64,000 nucleotides of DNA from contig NZ_CP102770.1 in the NCBI RefSeq assembly GCF_038561935.1, positions 4,526,001-4,590,000 of the forward strand, in the 5' to 3' direction. How positions within the stretch are numbered: position 1 is the stretch's first letter; each line of letters opens with the position of its first letter. The position numbers and the translations under genes were made by a program. Source of the DNA: Myxococcus stipitatus (GTDB taxonomy: Bacteria; Myxococcota; Myxococcia; Myxococcales; Myxococcaceae). The notes beneath the pieces are model-generated. The model was not told the DNA's origin and did no database searches. It was given only the letters and a program-made list of their open reading frames with translations. Shown here one piece after another: positions 14,306 through 34,489 of the stretch.

Positions 14306-14695
14306 TCACCAGGGGTCGACGCCCTTCTTCTCCGACGGCGTCTGCGTATACGAGGTCTTGTACACCGCGCCCGCGGCATTCAGGGTCGCGCCGAGAAGCT
14401 CGATGCTTCCCTGGCGCAGCTCGCCCTTCAGGAGGTTCTTGGTGCCGTCCTTCAGGAAGGAGATGGACTCGAGCCCGTGCGCGGTGAACTCGCTGCGGTC
14501 GCCGGTCTCCACCTTCTTGACGTTGTCGATGACGCTCTTCTGGGAGCTCTTGGAGATGCCGTAGTTGAAGGCATCCAGCACCATGTTCACGCCCTGGACC
14601 TGCTGGGAGTAGTCGCTCTTCTTGCCCTGCGTGGTCGCGTCGATCTCCTTGCGCGCGGGGTTCGTGATGACGTGGTTGCTGATTCGCTTGAGCAT
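14306..14695 (-). CDS. Hypothetical protein, 129 residues
   Basis: The start at 14695 is chosen for the strong AGGAGAGAAGG site just upstream. The product is polar at first (NPARKEIDATTQGKKSDYSQ), then has a more hydrophobic helical tail with ELLGATLNAAGAVYKTSY. There are no cysteines, no signal peptide and no motif I recognise. It runs divergently from the first cupin gene with about 170 bases between them, so shared regulation with that cluster is possible but not shown. Confidence 0.6.
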   Translation of the reverse strand: MLKRISNHVITNPARKEIDATTQGKKSDYSQQVQGVNMVLDAFNYGISKSSQKSVIDNVKKVETGDRSEFTAHGLESISFLKDGTKNLLKGELRQGSIELLGATLNAAGAVYKTSYTQTPSEKKGVDPW

Positions 14696-14863: not shown

Positions 14864-15871
14864 ATGGCGGACGTGGCACCCAGCCTTGGGGCGGACTGGC
14901 GGGAGTGGCTGGCGGAGAACGTGGTGCGGGGCGTGGACGTGGAGCGCCTGGTCGACACCCTCGTGACCGCGGGGCTCCCCCCCGACACGGCGCGCGCGGA
15001 GGTCGCCGCCACGCAAGCGCACCCCGCGGTGCGGGCGGGGCTCGGACACACGCGGCTGCATGAGGACACGCTGTCGCTGCTCGACACGCGCGTCCGGCTC
15101 CATCGCCACGCCGGAGCACATCGCCGGGTGGCGCGGCACAAGGACCTGCCCATCGCGGAGGTGATGACCCGCTACTACCTGGCCCACCGCCCGGTGCTGC
15201 TCGAGGGCTTCATGCGCGACTGGCCGCTGATGACGCGCTGGACGCCGCAATCCCTCGCAAGCGCGCTGGGGGATGTCGAGGTGGAGGTGATGGCGGGGAG
15301 AGAGGCTCGCGCGGACCATGACCTGGAGCCGGACGCCTGCCGCACGGTGATGCGCCTGGCGGAGTTCGTCCGCAGGCTGGAGGAGGGCGGGCCCAGCAAT
15401 GACCTCTACCTCACGGCGCGCAACTTCGCGCTGGAGCGGGAGGAGCTGCGCGGGCTGCTGGACGACGTGCGCTACCCTCCGGGACTGCTCCGGAAGTCAG
15501 CGCGTCCAGGCGCGGTGAAGCTCTGGGTGGGCCCCGCGGGGACGCTGACGGGGCTGCATCACGACCTGGGCACGGTCCTCTTCGGACAAGTGTTCGGGCG
15601 CAAACGCTTTCGCCTCATTCCCTCGTTCCACACGCACCACGTCTATAGCCATCTCGAGGTGTGGAGTCAGGTCGACGCGGAGCGGCCGGACCTCACACGC
15701 TTCCCCGCGTATCGCGAGGCGGACGTGCTCGAGGTCATCGTGGAGCCGGGTGACATGCTGTTGATTCCAGCCGGATGGTGGCACTGGGTGCATGCGCTGG
15801 ACGTCAGCGTGTCCGTCACCTTCCAGGAGTTCGACGTCCCGGAGGGCAATACCTGGTGGAAGCTGGGATGA
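14864..15871 (+). CDS. JmjC-like cupin_8 hydroxylase, first of three paralogues
   Basis: 335 residues. A helical N-terminal module (about 1-80; WREWLAENVVRGVDVERLVD, then HPAVR) is shared with the two following paralogues. The cupin part has the entry RPVLLEGFMRDWP, the metal motif HxD as His232-His233-Asp234 in TGLHHDLG, the strand GQVFGRKRFRLIPS and the distal ligand His307 in IPAGWWHWVHAL. These are the Fe(II)/2-oxoglutarate ligands of the FIH/JmjC-type hydroxylases, which hydroxylate side chains in proteins or peptides. GGAGAGGGC precedes the start. The substrate is unknown; a small proline-rich frame on the other strand follows directly. Confidence 0.8.
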   Translation: MADVAPSLGADWREWLAENVVRGVDVERLVDTLVTAGLPPDTARAEVAATQAHPAVRAGLGHTRLHEDTLSLLDTRVRLHRHAGAHRRVARHKDLPIAEVMTRYYLAHRPVLLEGFMRDWPLMTRWTPQSLASALGDVEVEVMAGREARADHDLEPDACRTVMRLAEFVRRLEEGGPSNDLYLTARNFALEREELRGLLDDVRYPPGLLRKSARPGAVKLWVGPAGTLTGLHHDLGTVLFGQVFGRKRFRLIPSFHTHHVYSHLEVWSQVDAERPDLTRFPAYREADVLEVIVEPGDMLLIPAGWWHWVHALDVSVSVTFQEFDVPEGNTWWKLG

Positions 15872-15889: not shown

Positions 15890-16057
15890 TCACTTCTCGA
15901 GCGGAGGCGTGGTGGGCGGCTCGGTGGGAGGAGTGCGCTCCCGGGGAGGCGCGATGTGACCTCCGGGATTGGGGACGATGCGCGGTGCCTGACGCGTGGC
16001 GGGATTGGGCGGCTGAAGCGGAGCGTTCTTCGGATCAGGAGCCTTGGGCGTCGTCAT
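15890..16057 (-). CDS. Small proline-rich ORF between two cupin genes
   Basis: 55 codons from ATG to TGA, with AGGGGAACGC just before the ATG. The product begins MTTPKAPDPKNAPLQPPNP and ends EPPTTPPLEK; about a third is proline, with no cysteine and no hydrophobic stretch, so it should be disordered. It lies on the opposite strand in the gap between cupin genes one and two, and its start faces the second cupin start across 57 bases, a likely shared promoter region. It may be a real small protein or a chance frame in GC-rich DNA; the ribosome site and placement favour a gene. Confidence 0.45.
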   Translation of the reverse strand: MTTPKAPDPKNAPLQPPNPATRQAPRIVPNPGGHIAPPRERTPPTEPPTTPPLEK

Positions 16058-16114: not shown

Positions 16115-17170
16115 ATGACTCCTGACGAGCGCGAGAGCCTTCCGCCCCAGGTGCTTTCCTGGCTCGCGGAAAACTTGACCTCGGGGGTGGCGCCCTCCCG
16201 GCTCGCCCTGGAACTGGTCTCATGGGGCTTGTCCCAGACACAGGCGGACCAGGCTGTGCACGCGGTGGCCGAGCACCCCGCGGTGCGTCACGGCCTCCAG
16301 TCCTCCCACCGGCGTCAGGAATTGGAGTCCCTGCTCTCGGCCCGCGCCCTGCTGCATGCCCAGCTCCATCCCGGGCCGTCCCCCCGCGCCGTCGAGCGCC
16401 TGCGCGGCCTGTCCCCGGAGGTGTTCTTCGAGCGCTACTTCGCGCGCAACCAGCCCGTCATCGTGGAGGGGCTGCTGGAGGACTGGCCCGCGCTGAAGCG
16501 CTGGACCCCGGAGTGGCTGGCGGAGCGGTTCGGCGACGAGGAGGTGGAGGTCATGGCGGGCCGAGGCGCCGAGCCGGACCCGGACTTCCACGCGGAGCGG
16601 CTGCGGAGGACCCAGACCATGCGCTCGCTGGTGGCGCAGGTGAGAGGGACGCCCGCGTCGGATGATGTCTATCTCGTGGCGCGAAACAGCCTGCTCTTGA
16701 AGCCCGCCTTTCGCTCCCTGCTCGATGACCTGCGTCCTCCGGCGGGCTTCATCCACCCGGACCTGAGTGCGCCGGACAGCGTCCACCTGTGGTTCGGCCC
16801 CGCGGGGACGCTGTCCAACCTGCACCACGACCACCTCAACATCCTCTTCTGCCAGGTGTTGGGACGGAAGCGCTTCTGGCTCTTGCCTCCCAGCGAGACT
16901 CCGCGCCTCTACAACGACCGGGGTCTCTACAGCGCGGTGGACATCCGCGCTCCGGACGCACGCCGCTTCCCGGACTTCGCGCGAGCCTGTCTGCACTCGT
17001 GTGTGGTGGGGCCCGGGGATGCGCTGTTGATTCCCGTGGGCTGGTGGCACGCGGTGCAGGCGCTGGACGTGAGCCTGTCCGTGACGTTCGTCAGCTTCGA
17101 CAGGCCCGAGCGCAACGTGGAGTGGCGCGACTATTGGATTGGCCCCCGGCCGGAGAAGGTCCAGCGATGA
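16115..17170 (+). CDS. JmjC-like cupin_8 hydroxylase, second paralogue
   Basis: 351 residues, closely similar in layout to the preceding cupin protein: helical module (VLSWLAENLTSGVAPSRLAL), RNQPVIVEGLLEDWPALKRW, metal motif His237-His238-Asp239 in SNLHHDHLN, core strand CQVLGRKRFWLLPPSE, and distal His312 in IPVGWWHAVQAL. All three expected Fe(II) ligands are present, so it is probably active as a 2-oxoglutarate oxygenase. Its stop overlaps the next start in ATGA (17167-17170), the sign of a coupled pair with the third paralogue. No strong ribosome site precedes its own start. Confidence 0.8.
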   Translation: MTPDERESLPPQVLSWLAENLTSGVAPSRLALELVSWGLSQTQADQAVHAVAEHPAVRHGLQSSHRRQELESLLSARALLHAQLHPGPSPRAVERLRGLSPEVFFERYFARNQPVIVEGLLEDWPALKRWTPEWLAERFGDEEVEVMAGRGAEPDPDFHAERLRRTQTMRSLVAQVRGTPASDDVYLVARNSLLLKPAFRSLLDDLRPPAGFIHPDLSAPDSVHLWFGPAGTLSNLHHDHLNILFCQVLGRKRFWLLPPSETPRLYNDRGLYSAVDIRAPDARRFPDFARACLHSCVVGPGDALLIPVGWWHAVQALDVSLSVTFVSFDRPERNVEWRDYWIGPRPEKVQR

Positions 17171-18060
17171 GGGATTCGGCGATGCGGGATGCGAGCGCGA
17201 GGCACGCGCTGGCACCGGAGTGGAAGCGCTGGGTGGTGGAGAACCTCCTGCGCGGCGCGGAGGCGGAGGACCTGGTGCCCGTGCTGGCGCGGGCGGGGGT
17301 CGACGAGTCGCTCGCGCGTTCGGCCATCCATGCCGAGATGGAGGACCCCTGCTTCCAGGGCGCCGCGCGCGCCGTCGCGATGCAGCGGAAGCTGGAGGGC
17401 CTGCTCGACCTCTACGGCGACCTCCACCGCCAATCACAAAGCCATCCACATATCACCAGGCACGAGGTCCTCTCTCCGCGCGACTTCTTCGAGCACTATT
17501 ACTTCCAGAACCTGCCCGTGGTCTGTCGCGCGACGGTGCTGGAGGAGTCCGTGCTCCAGACGGCGCTGGAGCGCCTGGGGACCGCGACGCGAGGGGATTG
17601 GGATGCGAGTCTTCCCCTGGCGCCTCCCCAGGGAATCGTGGCGGGGCCCTCACCCGCGGGGCTGTGGAGCGACGCGCCGGGGACGGAGTTTCCCCTGGCA
17701 CCCTCGCGGCGCAACACGCTGGTCTGTCAGGTGCGAGGCCGGGGCCTGTTCGTGCTCGTGCCCGCGTATGCCTTGCATCGCGTGCGGGACGCCACGTCGG
17801 TTCCCGAGGGTGTCTTGCGTTGGGACGTGGAGCTGTCGCCCGGTGAGCTGTTGTTGTTGCCCGTGGGCTGGTGGTTCGCGTTTCGCTCGCCGGAGGGGGG
17901 AGTCGCCGTCACCTTCGACGCCTTCGCCGCGCCCGAACCCAATGTGGTTTGGACTCCCCGGCCGGAGTCCCGAGAGCCTACGCCTCCTCCTCGTCCTCGA
18001 GTCGCTGGAGGAGCTGCCGCGCCAGCCCCCGCAGGGCGGGAGAGCCCGGCTCGCGATTGA
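17167..18060 (+). CDS. Cupin_8-like protein, third paralogue, metal site lost
   Basis: 297 residues. The helical module (WKRWVVENLLRGAEAEDLV) and the cupin frame (FQNLPVVCRATVLEES, NTLVCQVRGRGLFVLVPA, LLLPVGWWFAF) align with the two upstream paralogues. Where they have LHHD this protein has LAPSRRN, and their GWWH is GWWF (Phe237), so no Fe ligand remains. It is therefore probably a non-catalytic partner or regulator of the second paralogue, with which it is coupled by the ATGA overlap. Its proline-rich tail overlaps the convergent gene (17978-18376) by 83 bases; the tail may be poorly conserved. Confidence 0.7.
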   Translation: MRDSAMRDASARHALAPEWKRWVVENLLRGAEAEDLVPVLARAGVDESLARSAIHAEMEDPCFQGAARAVAMQRKLEGLLDLYGDLHRQSQSHPHITRHEVLSPRDFFEHYYFQNLPVVCRATVLEESVLQTALERLGTATRGDWDASLPLAPPQGIVAGPSPAGLWSDAPGTEFPLAPSRRNTLVCQVRGRGLFVLVPAYALHRVRDATSVPEGVLRWDVELSPGELLLLPVGWWFAFRSPEGGVAVTFDAFAAPEPNVVWTPRPESREPTPPPRPRVAGGAAAPAPAGRESPARD

Positions 18061-18376
18061 GCCGCTCCAGGGAGTCCCGGATGGTGTCGAGTCGTCCGGC
18101 CTGCTCGAGAATCTTCAACGCTCGGAACTGCACCAGCTCCTCGGGGGGCATGGAGTGGGGGATGGGGGGCTGGCCGCGCAACGGGATGCGCCCGCGTTGT
18201 GACAGCAGGTCCACGAGCACGCCCACGTCTTCATCACCCAAGGGGCACACCGCTCGATTCCGCGCCGCGTCCGACATCTGCTCCAGTGCCTCCATCAGCT
18301 CTCCCCAGGCGAAACCGCGAGGTGGCGCTTTTCGCTCCGCCACCATTCGCCTGAGTTGCTCGCGTGTCGTCGGCAT
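17978..18376 (-). CDS. Hypothetical helical protein, last gene of the CHAT operon
   Basis: 132 residues, starting MPTTREQLRRMVAERKAPPR, with AGGAGTTGTC before the ATG. It is mostly charged helix, with a central LGDEDVGVLVDLLSQRG and a leucine-rich end that could be a coiled coil or HEAT-like pair. No family is recognised and there is no signal peptide. It starts 8 bases after the stop of the transglutaminase-like gene, so the two are very likely one transcript. Its 3' end runs under the tail of the third cupin gene. Confidence 0.65.
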   Translation of the reverse strand: MPTTREQLRRMVAERKAPPRGFAWGELMEALEQMSDAARNRAVCPLGDEDVGVLVDLLSQRGRIPLRGQPPIPHSMPPEELVQFRALKILEQAGRLDTIRDSLERLNREPGSPALRGLARQLLQRLEDEEEA

Positions 18377-18384
18377 GACAACTC

Positions 18385-19656
18385 CTAGCGTGTCCACATG
18401 ATGTCTATCTCCGGGACCTGCTCCGTCCCGACGGTGATGCCGAGCTCATTGCGCTCCAGGTCCACCTCCCAGAGCCGTCCATTCGCGCGCAGCGTCCCCA
18501 TCAGCAGGGGCAGCGTCGGGTGCAGGTAGCGACGCCGGAAGGACGACTCCTGGTTCAGTCTGACGGGCCGTCCGTCGGCCGGGGGCAGGGGCATGTCCAG
18601 CTCCACCGCTTCTGTCAGGAAGCAGGCGTCGTAGAGATAGAGCCGGCCGGAGTCCTCCAGGAAGTTGAGGCAGTGCCCGTCATCCCAGCCGGACATGAAA
18701 GCATACCGGGACTCCACGCGGCCGAGCAGCTCCACCGGCTCGTCCGGCGCGAAGGGATAACGCAGGCTGTCCTGGAAGCGTCCGTTGAGCCGCGTCAGTC
18801 GGCTGGGCTCGACCTGGTTGATGCCTGACGCGATGGCGACCAGCGCCTCCCAGCGCACCTCGTCCGTCCGCGGGTTCTCGTGTGGCAACAGATGCAGGGT
18901 GCGGCCCTCGAGCGTCACGCCCTGGCAGTTGGCGAGCTGCTGGAAGAGCTGGTACCAGCCGCCGCACATGCCGCCACCCACGGCGAGCATGTGGCGCACC
19001 GTCCACGCGGGCACGCCGTAGCGCAGCCCCGTCTCGGGCAGCCCTCGCAGCAGCGCGTCGCAGATGTCCTTGCGCGACTCGAGCCCCGCGCACCAGCGCG
19101 AGGACCAGCGCAAGAGCGGCGTGTACGCGCCGCGCGGAGGGGCGCCCGTCTCTCCCTGCCGCATGGGCGCGCCCGTGGTGAACAGCTCATGGCGGCTGTT
19201 GCCCAGGAAGAGCTTGCGCGGCGTGCCGTCCGCGTCCGTCCACTCCGCGAACCACTGGAGCTCCAGCGCGTGGACACCGATGTGATTGGGCAGGGGCCGG
19301 TTGAAGTGCACGGGCTCCGCGAGCGTGTTCCACCCCGCCGTGCGCTCCAGGCTCACCGGATGCGGCCCGAGCCACCGCACCGAGGTGTTCACCGCGGCCG
19401 CGGGGCACAGCGAGGGACCAAAGGCACTCAGCTCGAACGACGCGGGGACGAAGTGGTTGGCCAGCAATGACACGCGGACGGAGGGGCGGCTTCCTCGGAC
19501 GTAGGCGACGGGCTCGGAGCGCTCGCCGCGAATCCACTCGGGCTGCTCCCCCAGACGCGCGTCCGTCACGGGATTCCACAAGGGAATCGTGCGGCTCTCC
19601 GTGTCTCCCCGGTCGAAGTGCAGGCTGTAGATGGCCAGCGGTTCCGCGTGGTGCAT
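18385..19656 (-). CDS. Protein with transglutaminase-like Cys/His/Asp arrangement, unknown role
   Basis: 423 residues. The N-terminal ~210 residues look like a beta-rich domain. Then GGGMCGGWYQLFQQLANCQG has Cys231 at the start of a helix as in the transglutaminase-like core; His328 lies in DDGHCLNFL and Asp343 in LYLYDACF, in the right order and spacing for a Cys-His-Asp triad. Members of that fold can be peptidases, cross-linkers or non-enzymes. The start at 19656 has GGGGAGGTGGAC upstream. It sits 84 bases after the CHAT gene and 8 before the small helical protein. No signal peptide is visible. The assignment is from motifs only. Confidence 0.6.
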   Translation of the reverse strand: MHHAEPLAIYSLHFDRGDTESRTIPLWNPVTDARLGEQPEWIRGERSEPVAYVRGSRPSVRVSLLANHFVPASFELSAFGPSLCPAAAVNTSVRWLGPHPVSLERTAGWNTLAEPVHFNRPLPNHIGVHALELQWFAEWTDADGTPRKLFLGNSRHELFTTGAPMRQGETGAPPRGAYTPLLRWSSRWCAGLESRKDICDALLRGLPETGLRYGVPAWTVRHMLAVGGGMCGGWYQLFQQLANCQGVTLEGRTLHLLPHENPRTDEVRWEALVAIASGINQVEPSRLTRLNGRFQDSLRYPFAPDEPVELLGRVESRYAFMSGWDDGHCLNFLEDSGRLYLYDACFLTEAVELDMPLPPADGRPVRLNQESSFRRRYLHPTLPLLMGTLRANGRLWEVDLERNELGITVGTEQVPEIDIMWTR

Positions 19657-19740
19657 GTCCACCTCCCCCTCATCCGTGCCGGTGGGGCACGGACACGGCA
19701 TCACGGCATCCGGCGGCCCCCCCAAGGGCCACCGGTGGAC

Positions 19741-22503
19741 CTACTCATACAACAACACGCGAGTCACCCACGGTGCGCTTTTCACCTCGCGCAACCAACG
19801 CAGGCGCTCCGCGCGCAGTGCCACCGCGGGAGCCGCGCCACCATGGATGCGCTCGCGCACCCCCTGGAAGAAGCGGCCCGCTGAGTCGGGAATGTCCACC
19901 GTCGCCGCGAACACCGCGCGCGCGCCCGCGCCCACGAAGGCCTGGGGCAGGGAAGAGGTCTGATGCAGCAGCGGAGGCAGCCGCGCCGCGCTGCACGCGC
20001 CCAGGAGCACCACCGGCGCGCCCTCCAGGCGGATCTGCTTGAGCGCCTCGGACGTGAGCGCGTAGCGCCCGTCGTACTCCGGGGCGAGCGCGATCACGGG
20101 CGCTTCCGACAGGCTCCGGTCCACCACGCCGTGCGCGTGGAACTCGATGTCGGTGGCCCGGCTCATCGCCTCCATCACGCGCGACGGCGTGGCCTGGGCA
20201 CCCGACAGCTCCATCGACGCGCCGATGGGCGCGGGCGTGGTGTCCCACGAGGACAGCCTCGCCAGGCCCAGGCCCGGGGGCGTCTCCACGTTGGCGATCA
20301 TCAGGTGCAGGGGCGACGGCTGCTTCTTCTGGGGCGAGGTGGCGGTCGACGCCACGCGGTAGCTCCACGCCATCTCGGGCGGCAGGAGCCCGGAGCGGCT
20401 GTCCAGCGGCGGCGCGGCGAGCACATCGACCTGGGGACAGGCGCGCAGCGTGGCCAGCACCTTCTCGGGCACCAGGCCCGTGAGGTCCTCGCCCAAGGGC
20501 TCCTTGCGCGTGGCGTCGTAGTGGCCCAGCACCTGCCCGCGAGGCCCCATCGCCACCACCACCGTGCGCTCGGCCTCCATCGCCGCCACGAGCGCGCACT
20601 GCGTCGGAGGCTTCACGCCCAGCTGGCGGGCCACGACCCCGGGGACCTCGGTGAAGGCATCCACCTCGCCCGCCGTGACGGCCAGCGTCTGGTAGGCCAC
20701 CGCCGCGGCATCCCGCACGTCCGAGTCCAGGGCCATCAGCGGCTCGGCGTCGCGGATGACGGCGTTGAGGAGCTTGTTGCCCGCGGCCCGGTTCTTCAAC
20801 AGCTCGAGCCGCGCCTCGACGAGCCGTGCCAGCAATTGGCGTCCAGGGGTCTCGCGCGTGGCGCGGACGCGGTCCAGCTCCGCGCGAATCTGCGCCTCGT
20901 CCTCGGGCTTGCGGTCCAACCGCATGAGGTCGGCGAGAATCCATGCGCCGATGAGCCCGACGGTGGGCTGGCAGGTCTGGGCTTGCAGCAAGGCGCGGCG
21001 GGCCTCGTGAGGACGCAGGCGCATCAGCTCCAGGGCCGCGATGTTGCGATACGTGTAGTTCTTCACGTCGCACGTGTCGGGCGCCCGGGCCAGGTACTCG
21101 TCGAGGTACGCGCGCGCGGAGGCGATCCGGAACTGGAAGCGCGCGGCCTGGGCCATGGCGCGCAGGGCCGCGGACTCCAGCTCCCACTCGCCCATCGACT
21201 GCGCCTCGCGCCAGCTCGCGCGAGCGGTCTCCTCCGCCTCCGAGAGGCGATTGGCCGACGTCGCGCGGTGGCTCATCTTGCGCAGCAGCTCCGCGCAGCG
21301 TGGACGCAGGTTCTTCTCCCGACACGCCGTCAGCGCGGCCTTGAGGCGCTGCCCCGCCCGCCAGGACTCGCCCGCCAGGTCCTCCTGCCGCGCCAGCTCG
21401 TCCTGGACGAGGAGCGCGATCCACGGGTCGTTCCACGCGGCGGCCACGCGCTCGAGCTCCCCTTGAGGGCCCTTCGAGTTGGGCGTCAGCAGCCGCGCGC
21501 CCAGGAGCAGGTCGTACTCACCGGCGCCCCGCAGGCGCGTGAGGAAGTCCTCCGACGCGGGCTGGCGCTCCCGGACGAGGCGCGCGTACTCGGCGGCCAG
21601 CGGCGCGCGCCGGCTGAAGTCTCGCGTGGCGATGGTCCGGGTGTGGGTCTCCAGCGCCGTGTCGCCATGGATGCGGTCCAGCGTCTGCGCCAGCGGGAGC
21701 AGCTCCATCAGCCGGGCGGAGGTGGGGGCGGTGCGGACGGCGTCGTAATAGAGGCCGCGCGCGATGCCTGGATGTTGCCGGGCCTCTTCGAGCGGGAGGG
21801 GGAGGTGTGAATCCTGAGCCAGGCGGGTGAACGCGGACTGGGTCCGTTTCCAGGACGCGGCCCGCTGCGCCACGGACGCGCGGAGGGCGGCGGCGTTCTC
21901 CCGAGCCTCCGTGCTCCAGCCCGGCTCGCCCAGGCGGGCCACCTCGTCGAAGACGGAGGCCGCGAGCAATTGCAGGCCCATGGCCCGCAGCACGAGCGCC
22001 CGGTTCCACAGGGCCTGGGGGTGGCGCGGGGCGGTCTCCAGCAGGGTGTCGAGCTGGGCCAATGCCTCGTCATGCTTCTTGAGCAGGAAGATGGCGACGG
22101 CCTGGTCGTTGTCGCGGTTCACCGACGCAGGAGCCTGCGACAGGTGCGCGAGCGCCTGCTGGGGGTCGCCATGGAGCAGGTAGGAGGCCGCGATTCCGGC
22201 CCGGTCTCCCTTCTCCTCGAGCCGCGCGAGCTCGCGCAGGGGGACGGCGATGGACGGCCGCTCCTCGCGCGGGAGCGAATAGGGACGATAGACATCCGCG
22301 GTCGCGACGCTGAGGCGGGCCTCCAGCGGGCGGGTGCGGGTGTCTGTGAGCCACAGCACCTCGGCGTGGCGGTCGGCCAGGGGACCGGAGCGCGCGATGA
22401 GAATCGCGGGGAACACAAGCAAGGGAATGAGATGCCAGGCACGCAGACGCGGCACGCGTCGCCCGCGTTTGGACTGCCCTGGTGCATCCAGCTCGCCTGC
22501 CAT
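19741..22503 (-). CDS. Membrane-anchored CHAT-domain protein with TPR-like helical region
   Basis: 920 residues. A basic N-terminus is followed by one membrane segment (WHLIPLLVFPAILIA, about 23-37). The long middle is helical with TPR-like units (KKHDEALAQLDTLLETAPRH). The C-terminal ~200 residues form a CHAT domain, a caspase-like peptidase: His791 in EFHAHGV and Cys837 in VVLLGACSA form the expected dyad, followed by FVGAGARAVFAATVDIPD. CHAT proteins are peptidases in some known systems, including a CRISPR-linked one, but many have no known target. The start at 22503 follows GGGGAGGGTC; an upstream ATG at 22536 is possible. It heads a three-gene operon. Confidence 0.8.
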   Translation of the reverse strand: MAGELDAPGQSKRGRRVPRLRAWHLIPLLVFPAILIARSGPLADRHAEVLWLTDTRTRPLEARLSVATADVYRPYSLPREERPSIAVPLRELARLEEKGDRAGIAASYLLHGDPQQALAHLSQAPASVNRDNDQAVAIFLLKKHDEALAQLDTLLETAPRHPQALWNRALVLRAMGLQLLAASVFDEVARLGEPGWSTEARENAAALRASVAQRAASWKRTQSAFTRLAQDSHLPLPLEEARQHPGIARGLYYDAVRTAPTSARLMELLPLAQTLDRIHGDTALETHTRTIATRDFSRRAPLAAEYARLVRERQPASEDFLTRLRGAGEYDLLLGARLLTPNSKGPQGELERVAAAWNDPWIALLVQDELARQEDLAGESWRAGQRLKAALTACREKNLRPRCAELLRKMSHRATSANRLSEAEETARASWREAQSMGEWELESAALRAMAQAARFQFRIASARAYLDEYLARAPDTCDVKNYTYRNIAALELMRLRPHEARRALLQAQTCQPTVGLIGAWILADLMRLDRKPEDEAQIRAELDRVRATRETPGRQLLARLVEARLELLKNRAAGNKLLNAVIRDAEPLMALDSDVRDAAAVAYQTLAVTAGEVDAFTEVPGVVARQLGVKPPTQCALVAAMEAERTVVVAMGPRGQVLGHYDATRKEPLGEDLTGLVPEKVLATLRACPQVDVLAAPPLDSRSGLLPPEMAWSYRVASTATSPQKKQPSPLHLMIANVETPPGLGLARLSSWDTTPAPIGASMELSGAQATPSRVMEAMSRATDIEFHAHGVVDRSLSEAPVIALAPEYDGRYALTSEALKQIRLEGAPVVLLGACSAARLPPLLHQTSSLPQAFVGAGARAVFAATVDIPDSAGRFFQGVRERIHGGAAPAVALRAERLRWLREVKSAPWVTRVLLYE

Positions 22504-30211: not shown

Positions 30212-33200
30212 ATGCTCCAAAGTTCCTTCTTCGATCCGGTGCTCGGCGTCGACATCCACATCGTGTTGGTGCCCACGCCCGCGCCGGTGCCGACCCCTGT
30301 TCCGATGCCCTTCATCGGCATGGTGTTCGATCCCGTCGGGTTGGCCATGGGAGCCGCCATTGGCATGGCCACAGGCGGCGGCCCCGGTCTGGTGATGGTC
30401 AACTCCCTGCCTGTCACCAACGCGGGGACGAACGTCACGAACATGCTGACGATGCCGCATCTCCCAGCTCCAGGGGTGGCCTTCGCGAAGGGGCTTCCAG
30501 GTAATGACGCGGAGCTCTTCTTCGGCAGCCTTGACGTCAAGCTCGCAGGCAGCCTGGGCGTGCGACTGGGCGAGATCGCCATGAGCTGCAGCGATCCAGT
30601 GCGGCTGCCCACCAGTGTGGTTCTGGCCATTCCCAAGGGGATGCCGGTGCTGACGATTCGGCCTCCGGTGCCGGATCTCGAAGGCATCGCGATGCGCCTT
30701 GCGATGCTCGGGGCCATGAAGCTGCTGAAGGCCGCGGCGCGTGGAGGCGCAAGGCTCTTCCGCGCCTTGAGGACGGCCCAGCGCAACAGCAGCAAGTGGG
30801 CGCGCATCAGCGGTGCTGTGCGCGGAGTGGTGGACAAGATAGCCCCCGCCCGCCTTCGCGACCGACTCAAGCGCGCGGCATGTTTCGTGACGGGTCACCC
30901 CGTCGATGTCGCGACGGGACGTGTCTTCACCGACAGCATCGACTTCGGACTGCCCGGCTCGATACCGCTCGTCTTCGAGCGCGTCTACTCCTCCTCGCTG
31001 TCGTGGCGGAACGGGCCGCTAGGGTATGGATGGAGTCACTCCCTGGACCAACAGGTGTGGGTGGAGCCCAACAAGGTGGTGTTCCTGGCCGAGGATGGGC
31101 GGGAGGTCGAATTCAGCACGCTCCACCTCCCAGACCGGGTGATGCGCGCTGGCCAGGCGATATTCCATCCCACCGAGCGGCTGACGCTCCGATGCACGGG
31201 GCCGTTCTCCTGGGCGCTCGAGACCGATGAAGGACTCGTGCGTGAGTTCGCGCGGGTGCCTGGTGGCCCCTCTCGGCGAGCACGGATTGTCCGTCAATCC
31301 AATCAGACGGGCGACGAGGTGACCTGGCACTATGACGAACAGGGCAGCCTTCGGACCGTGCGTGACTGCGCGGGGCGACGGGTCGGCTTCGAGTACGAAG
31401 CGGGACGGCTCGTCCGAGTGTCGGTGTCATCGGGCGCGGGCCAACCCTGGTTGATGCAGAGAGCGTTTGCCTATGATGGCGAGGGGGACCTCGTTGAAGC
31501 GCGAGACTCCGCCGGGCAGTCCTGGCGATTCGAATATGTCGGTCATCTGCTTGTTCGTGAAGTGAACCGGAATGGCCTTTCATTCTATTTCCAGTATGAC
31601 GGGCTTGGGGCGGCCGCCCGGTGCGTGCGCACGTGGGGGGATGGTGGACTGCTCGACCGGGTCATTGCCTATGACGTCGCCAACCGGAAGACCTTGGTCG
31701 AGAACTCATTGGGGCATGTGACTGTCTATGAGATGGATGACCTGGGGCAGGTCATCGCTGTCTCAGACGCACTGGGGCAGACGACGAGGTATGCGTATGA
31801 CCCGCGCACCGGTCAGAAGTGCAAGGAGGTGGATCCACTCGGCGCTGAGACCCTCTGGGAGTACGATGAAAGAGGGCACTGTACGAAGAGAACGCGTCCG
31901 GATGGAATTGCCGTCCAGATGCGGTTCGACTCGAGAGGACGGCTTGTCCTCGCCAGGGACCCTCTGGAGGGAGAATGGTCCTGGGCGTATGACCCGAAGG
32001 GGCGCATCACGCAGCGAGTGGATCCGCTGGGCCAGCGGGTTCGGTTTGAATGGGATGGGAGTCGCCTGACGGGCCTCCATGATGCCGCGGGGCAGTACAC
32101 TCGGTTGGAGTACGACGAGCAGGGGAATCTCACGCGATTGCGCACGCCCGATGGGACCGAGTCCCTGTGGCGCTATGACGGCTTTGGGCAGCTGCAAGAA
32201 GGCGTGGATGCCAAAGGGAACGTCCGGAAGCGGGAGTACGACCTCTTGGGGCGTGTCGTGCGGGTGTGTGAACCCGATGGCAATGTCCGAATACTGGGCT
32301 ACGACCCCGAAGGAAATATCACCCATGTTCGTGACAAGCACCATGAGGTGTTGCTCGCCTATCAAGGATTGGGGCGGCTTCGGTCTCGGACGGAGAGCGG
32401 CACGACCGTGTCATTCGAATACGATTCCGAGGAGCAGCTCGTCGGCATCAAGAACGAGGGAGGCTTCGCCTACGGGTTCGAGTTCGACGCCGCGGGGGCC
32501 GTGAAGACCGAGCGTGGGTTCGATGGGCTGGTTCGCCAGTATGTGCGGGATCCAGCGGGGCGGGTGGAGAAGGTACTGCGACCGCTGGGCAAGGTATCGG
32601 AGTACGCCTACGACATCCTGGGGCGTGTGACGTCCGTGAAGCACTGGGATGGAATCGAGACCTATCGATACCGTGCGGATGGGGAGTTCATCGAAGCGAC
32701 GAACGACACTGCGACGGTGACGTTCGAGCGGGATGCGCTTGGCCGGGTCACGCGAGAGCAGCAGGGAGAAGATTGGGTCGCGTCTGAGTACGACCGGTTG
32801 GGGCGGCGTGTCCGTGTCAGCTCCTCCAAGGACTTCCATCAGAAGATTCGTCGGAATGCGATGGGCGATGTCCTCGAGCTGTCCGTTCAGTTCCGAGAGT
32901 CGGGAGTCCCGGCGGACGGGCCGCAACGGCACAAAGCGAGTGCCCCAGGCGCCGGACTCGAGTCGGGCCAGGGCTTCCGGGTGGACTTCCAGCGTGACGA
33001 ACTCGGATTCGAGCTCGAACGCATGCTGCCGGGAGGGGTTCGAAGCACCTGGGAACGGGATAGGCTGGGCCGTCCGATCCGCCAGGAGATCTGGTCGCCG
33101 CAGGGCTCACACGGCGCCAGGCAGTACACCTGGGATGTGGATGATCGCCTGAGCATGATTGTCGACTCGCTCCATGGCCCCATGAAGTATGTGCACGACT

Positions 33201-34489
33201 CCTTTGGGAACCTTGTCGCCGCGGTGTATTCGGACGGGCAGACCGAGCTGCGGATGCCCGACGCTGTCGGCAACTTGTTTCGCACGCGGGAGCAAAGTGA
33301 CCGCCGATATGGCCCCACGGGCCAGCTGCTCGAGGCTCATGGCCCACGCGGGGTCACGCGGTATGAATATGATCTGGAAGGAAATCTGGTGAGGAAGCTC
33401 GAACCAGATGACAGGGAGTGGCGGTACGAATGGAACGCCTCGGGGATGCTCGTGCGCGTCATTCGTCCGGATGGGCAGCGCGTGGAGTTCGGATACGACG
33501 TCTTCGGTCGGCGTGTCTGGAAGCGCTTCCAGGGGAAGACGACGCGGTGGATCTGGGATGGCAACCTGCCTCTGCATGAGTGGAAGGAGAACCCTGCGCC
33601 GGGAGTGTCAGGCTTGCCGGCTCCCACCTTGCGTGGCGTCGCGGACACCGTGGCCGCCAAGCGCCGTCAGGCCGAGCTCGGCGAGCGCCCCGCCCAAGGC
33701 CCCCCTGTTGAAAACTCCATCACCTGGGTGTTCGAACCAGGGAGCTTCGCCCCGCTCGCGAAGTTCGTGGATGGCGAGTGCTTTGGAATCGTCACGGATC
33801 ATCTCGGTGCTCCACGGGCGATGTTCGATGGCCAGGGAGAGAAGGTCTGGTCGGCGGACCTCGGTGTCTATGGCGAGTTGCTCAACCTGGTCGGTGAGCG
33901 GGATGCCTGTCCATTCCGCTGGCCTGGTCAGTACGAGGATGCCGAGACAGGGCTCTATTACAACCGGCACAGATACTATGCGGCCGAGGAAGGCGAGTAC
34001 CTCAGTCAAGACCCGCTGGGCCTTCGCGGTGGCCTGCGGCTCCTGGGTTACGTTCACGACCCCTGTGCCTGGATTGACCCGCTTGGCTTCTCGGGGTGTG
34101 CGACGAAGGGACAGCCGCTCGATGATGGCGCGCTGGTGCATCGAATCGGTGGCGCGGGCGTGGACAACCTTCATCTCAAGCCCCCGGAGAAGAAGCTCTC
34201 ACCCCCGGGTATCTCGCTCCTCCAGGCGTCGTCCGCGGAAGAGGCTTCGGCCCTGGCCAAGAAGGTCGCGGGAGAGAAGGGATGGAGCAAGATGGCGACT
34301 GCGGCCGAGACCATGGGCTCCGCGAAGGTGAGTGATATCCGCGCAGCCGGCTTCGATGTGATTCATGACTGCACGGATACCTGGGGCGAAAAACACGCCA
34401 GGCTCATCCACCCAGATGGAGCCAGTGGCTTCACTCCCGAGAACCTTGATAAGCTCTCCAAGGTTTTCACGAACACCTCCGGGCTTTGA
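30212..34489 (+). CDS. RHS-repeat polymorphic toxin with PAAR-like N-terminus
   Basis: 1425 residues. The N-terminal ~170 residues form a PAAR-like cap (MPHLPAPGV, MSCSDPVRLPTSVVLAIPKG). Around residue 225 the DUF6531 segment (TGHPVDVATGRVFT, FERVYSSSLSW) opens the RHS shell, made of dozens of YD repeats such as YDEQGNLTRLRTPDGTE. The shell closes with YNRHRYYAAEEGEYLSQDPL, then DPLGL, 17 residues and DPLGF, the self-cleavage pair of RHS effectors. The final ~130 residues (1296-1425) are the toxin domain, with His-rich spots VHRIGGAGVDNL, DVIHDCTD and RLIHPDGASGF; I know no enzyme family for it. Delivery is probably by a type VI-like system, but no secretion genes lie nearby. Confidence 0.88.
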   Translation: MLQSSFFDPVLGVDIHIVLVPTPAPVPTPVPMPFIGMVFDPVGLAMGAAIGMATGGGPGLVMVNSLPVTNAGTNVTNMLTMPHLPAPGVAFAKGLPGNDAELFFGSLDVKLAGSLGVRLGEIAMSCSDPVRLPTSVVLAIPKGMPVLTIRPPVPDLEGIAMRLAMLGAMKLLKAAARGGARLFRALRTAQRNSSKWARISGAVRGVVDKIAPARLRDRLKRAACFVTGHPVDVATGRVFTDSIDFGLPGSIPLVFERVYSSSLSWRNGPLGYGWSHSLDQQVWVEPNKVVFLAEDGREVEFSTLHLPDRVMRAGQAIFHPTERLTLRCTGPFSWALETDEGLVREFARVPGGPSRRARIVRQSNQTGDEVTWHYDEQGSLRTVRDCAGRRVGFEYEAGRLVRVSVSSGAGQPWLMQRAFAYDGEGDLVEARDSAGQSWRFEYVGHLLVREVNRNGLSFYFQYDGLGAAARCVRTWGDGGLLDRVIAYDVANRKTLVENSLGHVTVYEMDDLGQVIAVSDALGQTTRYAYDPRTGQKCKEVDPLGAETLWEYDERGHCTKRTRPDGIAVQMRFDSRGRLVLARDPLEGEWSWAYDPKGRITQRVDPLGQRVRFEWDGSRLTGLHDAAGQYTRLEYDEQGNLTRLRTPDGTESLWRYDGFGQLQEGVDAKGNVRKREYDLLGRVVRVCEPDGNVRILGYDPEGNITHVRDKHHEVLLAYQGLGRLRSRTESGTTVSFEYDSEEQLVGIKNEGGFAYGFEFDAAGAVKTERGFDGLVRQYVRDPAGRVEKVLRPLGKVSEYAYDILGRVTSVKHWDGIETYRYRADGEFIEATNDTATVTFERDALGRVTREQQGEDWVASEYDRLGRRVRVSSSKDFHQKIRRNAMGDVLELSVQFRESGVPADGPQRHKASAPGAGLESGQGFRVDFQRDELGFELERMLPGGVRSTWERDRLGRPIRQEIWSPQGSHGARQYTWDVDDRLSMIVDSLHGPMKYVHDSFGNLVAAVYSDGQTELRMPDAVGNLFRTREQSDRRYGPTGQLLEAHGPRGVTRYEYDLEGNLVRKLEPDDREWRYEWNASGMLVRVIRPDGQRVEFGYDVFGRRVWKRFQGKTTRWIWDGNLPLHEWKENPAPGVSGLPAPTLRGVADTVAAKRRQAELGERPAQGPPVENSITWVFEPGSFAPLAKFVDGECFGIVTDHLGAPRAMFDGQGEKVWSADLGVYGELLNLVGERDACPFRWPGQYEDAETGLYYNRHRYYAAEEGEYLSQDPLGLRGGLRLLGYVHDPCAWIDPLGFSGCATKGQPLDDGALVHRIGGAGVDNLHLKPPEKKLSPPGISLLQASSAEEASALAKKVAGEKGWSKMATAAETMGSAKVSDIRAAGFDVIHDCTDTWGEKHARLIHPDGASGFTPENLDKLSKVFTNTSGL

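Follow-up and report, generated by a model that had tools for sequence, protein, structure and literature searches.

The minus-strand gene trio analyzed here, located in a 64,000-nucleotide stretch of the Myxococcus stipitatus genome (RefSeq assembly GCF_038561935.1, contig NZ_CP102770.1, forward-strand positions 4,526,001 to 4,590,000; hereafter the window), forms one part of a more extensive gene unit that is conserved in myxobacteria. The trio encodes P0001, a membrane protein with a TPR-like region and a caspase-like CHAT domain, the orphan protein P0002 and the small protein P0003, and its three frames, separated by 84 and 8 bases respectively, were confirmed as originally delineated. The plus strand carries three genes for JmjC/Cupin_8 proteins (the cupins C335, C351 and C292), and a short peptide is encoded on the opposite strand between the first two of these. 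Neither the cupin genes nor the peptide gene was listed in the original prediction, which suggested that P0001 and P0002, as cysteine hydrolases, could form a cascade in which either cleaves or alters its partner. The cupins and the peptide form the core of the unit, the CHAT gene is their usual partner, and P0002 and P0003 occur in some lineages only. The placement of the trio within this unit points to a caspase-like membrane sensor coupled to a modified peptide as the likely theme, rather than to a two-enzyme cascade.

The delineation of the core follows from its distribution across genomes, which was established by tblastn and direct scans of open reading frames (ORFs), because the codon-usage caller that supplied the gene calls had missed both P0003 and the peptide gene in the window. 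A search with C335 revealed the cupin set in many genomes beyond those with P0002, and its surroundings were taken from 42 genomes, corresponding to 43 loci since G068, where it is split over two contigs (L154 and L169), was counted once; a disrupted and incomplete second cupin copy in G095 (L178) was excluded. The opposite-strand peptide gene was recovered in 41 of these genomes, the exception being G068, which is cut by contig ends at this point, so that a short precursor-like gene lies beside tailoring-type genes in 41 of the 42. The CHAT gene was found in 38 and P0002 in 20, and it is these counts that single out the cupins and the peptide as the core and P0002 and P0003 as lineage-limited accessories. 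All 20 P0002 loci hold cupins of a single clade, which converge with the trio in 19 cases and stand in line with it in G047, where the cupin, CHAT, P0002 and P0003 genes all run in one direction. An extracytoplasmic function (ECF) sigma factor gene adjoins the blocks of both G047 and G082; it is accompanied in G047 by a gene of the zinc-finger-TPR family, and in G082, which has two cupins and not three, by a TPR gene of the same family whose called frame is devoid of the zinc finger. No clean empty site was encountered, and four genomes of the genus that have no block keep the aminoacylase flank gene with other neighbors. A PADLOC scan limited to the unit's six larger proteins produced no match.

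The peptide gene is a real gene under protein-level selection, as judged from its codon-level divergence. Its frame is kept in relatives, together with the IVPNP motif and a C-terminal end resembling PP.TPPL. Differences between seven pairs of trio genomes fall at codon positions 1, 2 and 3 in the numbers 39, 33 and 87, those between eight pairs from outside the genus number 20, 28 and 67, and the ratio of nonsynonymous to synonymous divergence (pN/pS) summed over eight pairs is 0.41. Variants include an extra repeat unit in the L045 peptide, VVPNP in that of G047, and IVNP followed by a long lysine-rich tail in that of G082, in which a lysine/alanine repeat (KKTAAKKKTAAKKK) comes after the conserved TPPLE. 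A profile search of 145 genomes recovered the peptide in the 18 genomes of the genus that also have P0002, in G077 and weakly in G010; it missed the divergent G047 and G082 copies and, as it predated their recognition, those in other genera. The profile had no match in the PDB, and the peptide had none among plasmids.

Two of the three cupins, C335 and C351, retain an intact HxD...H metal-binding triad, and their Cupin_8 domains are recognized with E values of 1.3e-43 and 7e-46 respectively, as against 1.8e-6 for C292. Since the C292 gene is conserved in all 42 genomes, yet its Fe triad is intact in G047 alone, C292 is an apparent pseudo-oxygenase; it has retained the N-terminal domain, and its 3' end overlaps that of P0003. 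Profile comparisons with the PDB recovered the peptidyl hydroxylases JMJD5 (E 3e-44) and FIH (the HIF asparaginyl hydroxylase, E 5e-23), from which the cupins of this unit differ in being bacterial and in possessing the extra N-terminal domain. The four cupins of this clade encoded by the window's genome all lie inside the trio-type locus and a locus of a second type, described below.

By sequence comparison, P0001 is paralogous to DdvA, a transmembrane anti-sigma factor, but is devoid of the sigma-binding zinc finger. The profile of its family matched the DdvA structure (chain 8rot_B) over residues 23-920 with an E value of 1.9e-202, with the His and Cys of the CHAT dyad aligned; the PDB entry titles describe 8rot as the 'transmembrane anti-sigma factor DdvA' and 8rw5 as a DdvA dimer. 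This homology was not derived from the AlphaFold2 model of the CHAT part, whose mean predicted local distance difference test (pLDDT) score was 42.6 and whose PDB comparison served for entry titles only. The originally noted dyad of His791 and Cys837 is invariant in all 38 orthologues of the cupin block. On its own P0001 gave no Pfam CHAT match at E<=1, and such a match was obtained for 9 of the 15 members of its alignment; the TPR-like region likewise has matches, all of them weak and under the Pfam cut-offs. The single membrane segment was borne out by one hydrophobic stretch (residues 20-36), with five Lys or Arg in the 15 residues before it and two in the 15 after, and the CHAT part is predicted to lie outside the membrane. 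A comparable segment precedes the TPR part in L050, and in L051, as its frame was called, no segment exceeds the threshold. The aligned N-termini of the orthologues are without a zinc finger, the HxxxCxxC pattern being seen near the start of just one of 38 (L041, in a Cys-rich stretch judged to be out of frame). Four full-length paralogues and a partial one occur in the same genome. Across 27 genomes of the genus, a close P0001 orthologue (at least 60% identity) and P0002 are found in the same 18 and are both missing from the other 9.

P0002 and P0003 are a lineage add-on to the cupin block. Among 145 genomes of the order, 20 contain P0002, and a profile search across the phylum likewise gave 20 genomes out of 195, belonging to 3 of 90 genera; in all 20 genomes it adjoins a co-directional P0001 orthologue. 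P0003 accompanies it in 17 of these; an 18th match, in G028, had an internal stop and an E value of 9.4e-4, and was taken as chance and left uncounted. The residues Cys231, His328 and Asp343, which had been noted in P0002 as standing in a transglutaminase-like order, are invariant in all 20 genes and also align in a relative of 22% identity, and it is in these residues and their order that P0002 resembles the transglutaminase-like cysteine enzymes. The transglutaminase name itself found no backing from family, structure or profile matches, in comparisons that used small profiles: Pfam at E<=1 and NCBIfam gave none, the best PDB match was an unrelated hydrolase at E 0.72, and hhalign comparison with the Transglut_core proteins of the same genome, a weak test involving five rows of which one or two are doubtful, returned a probability of 0.1. 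An AlphaFold2 model built from six sequences (the window and five related loci) had a pLDDT of 32.4 and was not used, and the four matches to phage records were all at chance level (E 2 or more). The one distant relative recovered, in G105, matches the N-terminal part (hhalign E 1.3e-5), with the Cys, His and Asp aligned; this 346-residue protein is encoded after a gene for a phage tail collar-domain protein and before an uncharacterized gene of 248 codons.

Association of CHAT proteins with this cupin clade is not confined to the trio. A second locus type consists of a zinc-finger-less CHAT gene, one cupin gene, a small peptide gene with a VK.xY..C motif (up to 62 residues), an ECF sigma factor gene and a CHAT-less zinc-finger-TPR gene, and this composition was seen in 14 of the 14 loci examined: nine drawn from the 27 of 27 genus genomes that carry the second-type cupin, and five from other genera. 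Five further single-cupin genes all have a peptide gene with a DVNV motif on the opposite strand. In a tree built on the last 845 residues of 38 CHAT proteins selected among the fetched loci, trio-type and second-type proteins fall into separate groups (support 96/96 and 100/100 respectively), with the sister relation between them not resolved. More widely, loci L084-L103 contain 26 CHAT-family genes, 20 of which lie immediately behind a gene for an ECF sigma factor; most of the products of these 20 start with a zinc-finger pattern, and the Pfam zf-HC2 domain was detected in both of the ECF-linked proteins of this kind that were scanned. Small proline-rich frames (..INPHDPPPEPTPGL.., ..EIPDPPPERDRGL..) were also noted on the same strand 3' of ECF-linked DdvA-type CHAT genes, at distances of 26-108 bases (for L092 to L089, from overlapping to 108), and could represent additional peptide partners. 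We do not claim that small proline-rich ORFs are generally enriched close to CHAT-family genes, the excess being weak (12 of 522 near versus 13 of 1256 far).

Taking the gene map as observed, we infer from it a chemistry and a flow of signal that we offer as a tentative account, with a little under an even chance of being correct. The putative steps are: 1) C335 and C351 would hydroxylate side chains of the peptide, namely the Asn of IVPNP, or Pro, or Arg. 2) The apparently dead C292 might act as their recognition partner. 3) The TPR-CHAT protein, a putative sensor that probably arose from anti-sigma factors and kept its CHAT residues, would take the peptide as its ligand or substrate. 4) Together with a distinct anti-sigma subunit of the zinc-finger-TPR kind, in effect as a 'split DdvA', the CHAT protein might help to free an ECF sigma factor. 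5) P0002 with P0003 could add a cytoplasmic cysteine-dependent step, acting on the peptide or the cupins. That the peptide is a JmjC substrate is suggested by its gene adjoining cupins with intact metal sites in 41 of 42, 14 of 14 and 5 of 5 cases in the three kinds of loci. A divided anti-sigma factor is suggested because a DdvA-like sensor that has no sigma-binding domain nevertheless keeps its CHAT residues, and the release of an ECF sigma factor because the second locus type carries the ECF and zinc-finger-TPR genes. Taken together, these two suggestions would make the peptide the signal.

Several observations weigh against this account, chiefly the compartments predicted for the peptide and the CHAT protein and the existence of cupin-peptide loci that have no CHAT gene. 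The peptide contains neither a hydrophobic stretch nor a signal sequence, and with the CHAT part predicted to lie on the outer side of the membrane the two may never meet. No CHAT gene was found at the cupin loci of G073, G077, G083 and G084 (4 of 42) or in the fetched surroundings of the five single-cupin genes, so the cupins and the peptide do not need it. An ECF sigma factor gene is absent from the vicinity of the trio in all 18 genus genomes, the window's block included. The peptide core varies with the locus type (IVPNP, VK.xY..C or DVNV), and at eight more distant cupins no peptide of this kind was found. Moreover, the pN/pS between the window's peptide and the far G047 copy reaches 0.90, and the third-position excess is missing in two of the eight outside-genus pairs (L143/L144 and L145/L146). 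A more specific version of the account, in which the JmjC/FIH-like enzymes would hydroxylate the dedicated peptide depending on oxygen or 2-oxoglutarate, and the peptide so altered would gate a membrane caspase-like CHAT protein able to release an ECF sigma factor, appears to us quite unlikely. If true, it would be a bacterial equivalent of sensing through the hydroxylation of peptides, acting on IVPNP here and on VK.xY..C or DVNV in the sister loci, the last of which may resemble the ankyrin-repeat motif that FIH hydroxylates.

Among the alternatives, the cascade between P0001 and P0002 is very improbable. The two genes are adjoining and co-directional wherever P0002 occurs, and both sets of residues are invariant, so the observation that prompted the idea was real, as is the pairing where P0002 exists, and the original interpretation is partly supported. 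The trio as a whole proved less cohesive, to a large extent in the way that the original prediction had named as grounds for its rejection: of the 38 genomes whose cupin block includes CHAT, 18 lack both P0002 and P0003 at that place and have P0002 nowhere else. A cascade is further opposed by the predicted location of the partners on opposite sides of the membrane, the CHAT part outside and P0002 without a hydrophobic segment, which is a prediction and no proof, and by the lack of profile support for P0002 as a transglutaminase. A decidedly unlikely reading is that the CHAT and zinc-finger-TPR proteins jointly control an ECF sigma factor as a split anti-sigma factor, with the cupins and the peptide as unrelated passengers; it would accommodate both the full-length homology to DdvA, dimeric according to the entry title, and the ECF and zinc-finger-TPR genes at all 14 second-type loci, but not the fact that CHAT genes occur next to cupins of this clade in two distinct groups within the CHAT tree (38 and 14 loci).

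Two further readings assign the cupins other roles. They could be tailoring enzymes of a locus for a natural product akin to ribosomally synthesized and post-translationally modified peptides (RiPPs), in which P0002 would cleave or cross-link the precursor peptide and the CHAT protein would process it or guard against it, with no link to a sigma factor. This we regard as unlikely. The JmjC/cupin enzymes PbsQ and BpmG are reported to tailor RiPPs within short-peptide clusters (PMC12257519), bacterial JmjC homologues are described from RiPP-like contexts (PMC12710340), the L045 peptide has its additional repeat unit, and the G082 block adjoins APH, HopA1, LanC-like and subtilase genes and a 107-residue CTPVC-repeat peptide. 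On the other hand, PbsQ and BpmG are reported to act with MNIO, B12-rSAM and other enzymes, none of which was recognized at this locus; no exporter was recognized by eye in the window's gene list; the conserved element of the peptide is C-terminal, in contrast to the usual N-terminal leader; and the second locus type includes ECF and anti-sigma genes. The cupins might instead be DNA-binding regulators with the peptide and CHAT genes as their targets, in the manner of Esi from epothilone biosynthesis, which is described as a repressor with an N-terminal domain and a Cupin_8 domain (PMC5442856) and is compared here by domain make-up only. The short spacer from which the peptide and cupin genes are divergently transcribed would suit such a role, which is nonetheless highly unlikely given the intact Fe triads of C335 and C351 and the lack of a shared DNA motif upstream of the peptides, as sought by eye and by an 8-mer count; the section of the source on Esi describes no peptide or CHAT partner for it.

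Returning to the peptide-sensing account, the nearest known systems include DdvA, which keeps the aligned His and Cys; P0001 differs by lacking the zinc finger and, within the window, an adjacent ECF gene, and by having the cupins and the peptide as neighbors. The sigma factor DdvS, held by DdvA, is reported to control a phage-defense island in Myxococcus xanthus (PMC12288465), and the signal that inactivates DdvA was stated to be unknown in 2015 (PMC4374960); the conserved, overlooked peptide gene thus offers a candidate ligand or substrate for DdvA-like CHAT proteins. ECF54-type sigma factors are comparable by gene context alone, their genes being near CHAT genes, and are described as having no anti-sigma factor (PMC8999054). 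In the Csx29-Csx30-CASP-sigma system of type III-E CRISPR, a TPR-CHAT protease is reported to act on the inhibitor of an ECF-like sigma factor (PMC10028731); by contrast, no relative of Cas7-11 or Csx30 was recognized by PADLOC among the unit's six larger proteins, and the P0001 profile showed no sequence relation to Csx29, with weak fold rows only, from the poor model. The JmjC genes are candidate peptide-modifying enzymes, and their tie to a defined bacterial peptide renders the substrate directly testable. While ECF-linked CHAT proteins, DdvA, Csx29-Csx30 and RiPP JmjC enzymes are known, no report of a cupin, peptide and CHAT combination was found in the open-licence literature searched, and parts of it may have been noticed earlier.

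Table 1. Coordinates of the features discussed, in the window or in the locus named
Feature	Locus	Position	Strand	Description	Conservation
C335	window	14864..15871	+	JmjC/Cupin_8 protein, HxD...H intact	41/41 orthologues
Peptide	window	15890-16057	-	55 aa, between C335 and C351; one intact IVPNP, C-terminal PPTTPPLEK	
C351	window	16115..17170	+	JmjC/Cupin_8 protein, HxD...H intact	42/42 orthologues
C292	window	17182..18060	+	degenerate JmjC/Cupin_8 protein	gene in 42/42, Fe triad intact in 1/42
P0003	window	17978..18376	-	small protein (132 aa) without known family, directly after P0002	
P0002	window	18385..19656	-	orphan protein (423 aa), Cys/His/Asp in transglutaminase-like order, no hydrophobic segment	
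P0002 Cys231	window	18964-18966	-		
P0002 His328	window	18673-18675	-		
P0002 Asp343	window	18628-18630	-		
P0001	window	19741..22503	-	DdvA-like TPR-CHAT membrane protein (920 aa) without N-terminal zinc finger	
P0001 His791 codon	window	20131-20133	-		
P0001 Cys837 codon	window	19993-19995	-		
Frame adjoining C335	window	14306-14695	-	129 aa	
PAAR/Rhs-like frame	window	30212-34489	+	1425 aa	
G082 peptide	L051	6700-6966	-	lysine/alanine repeat tail	
G082 RiPP-like cluster	L122	2737-3060			
G082 RiPP-like cluster	L051	1447-6651			
P0002 relative (G105) and flanking genes	L121	8932-11555			
Proline-rich frame	L092	13107-13289			
Proline-rich frame	L129	9443-9700			
Proline-rich frame	L130	8163-8333			
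Proline-rich frame	L089	9922-10104			
Proline-rich frame	L131	7578-7760			
Proline-rich frame	L084	9232-9411			

Among minor observations, the CTPVC-repeat peptide of the RiPP-like cluster in G082 has a sub-threshold match to a model for streptamidine-related RiPPs. Within the window, the frame adjoining C335 clusters with genes in three close relatives only (L033-L035), and the plus-strand frame of 1425 residues has, by eye, a PAAR/Rhs-type look.

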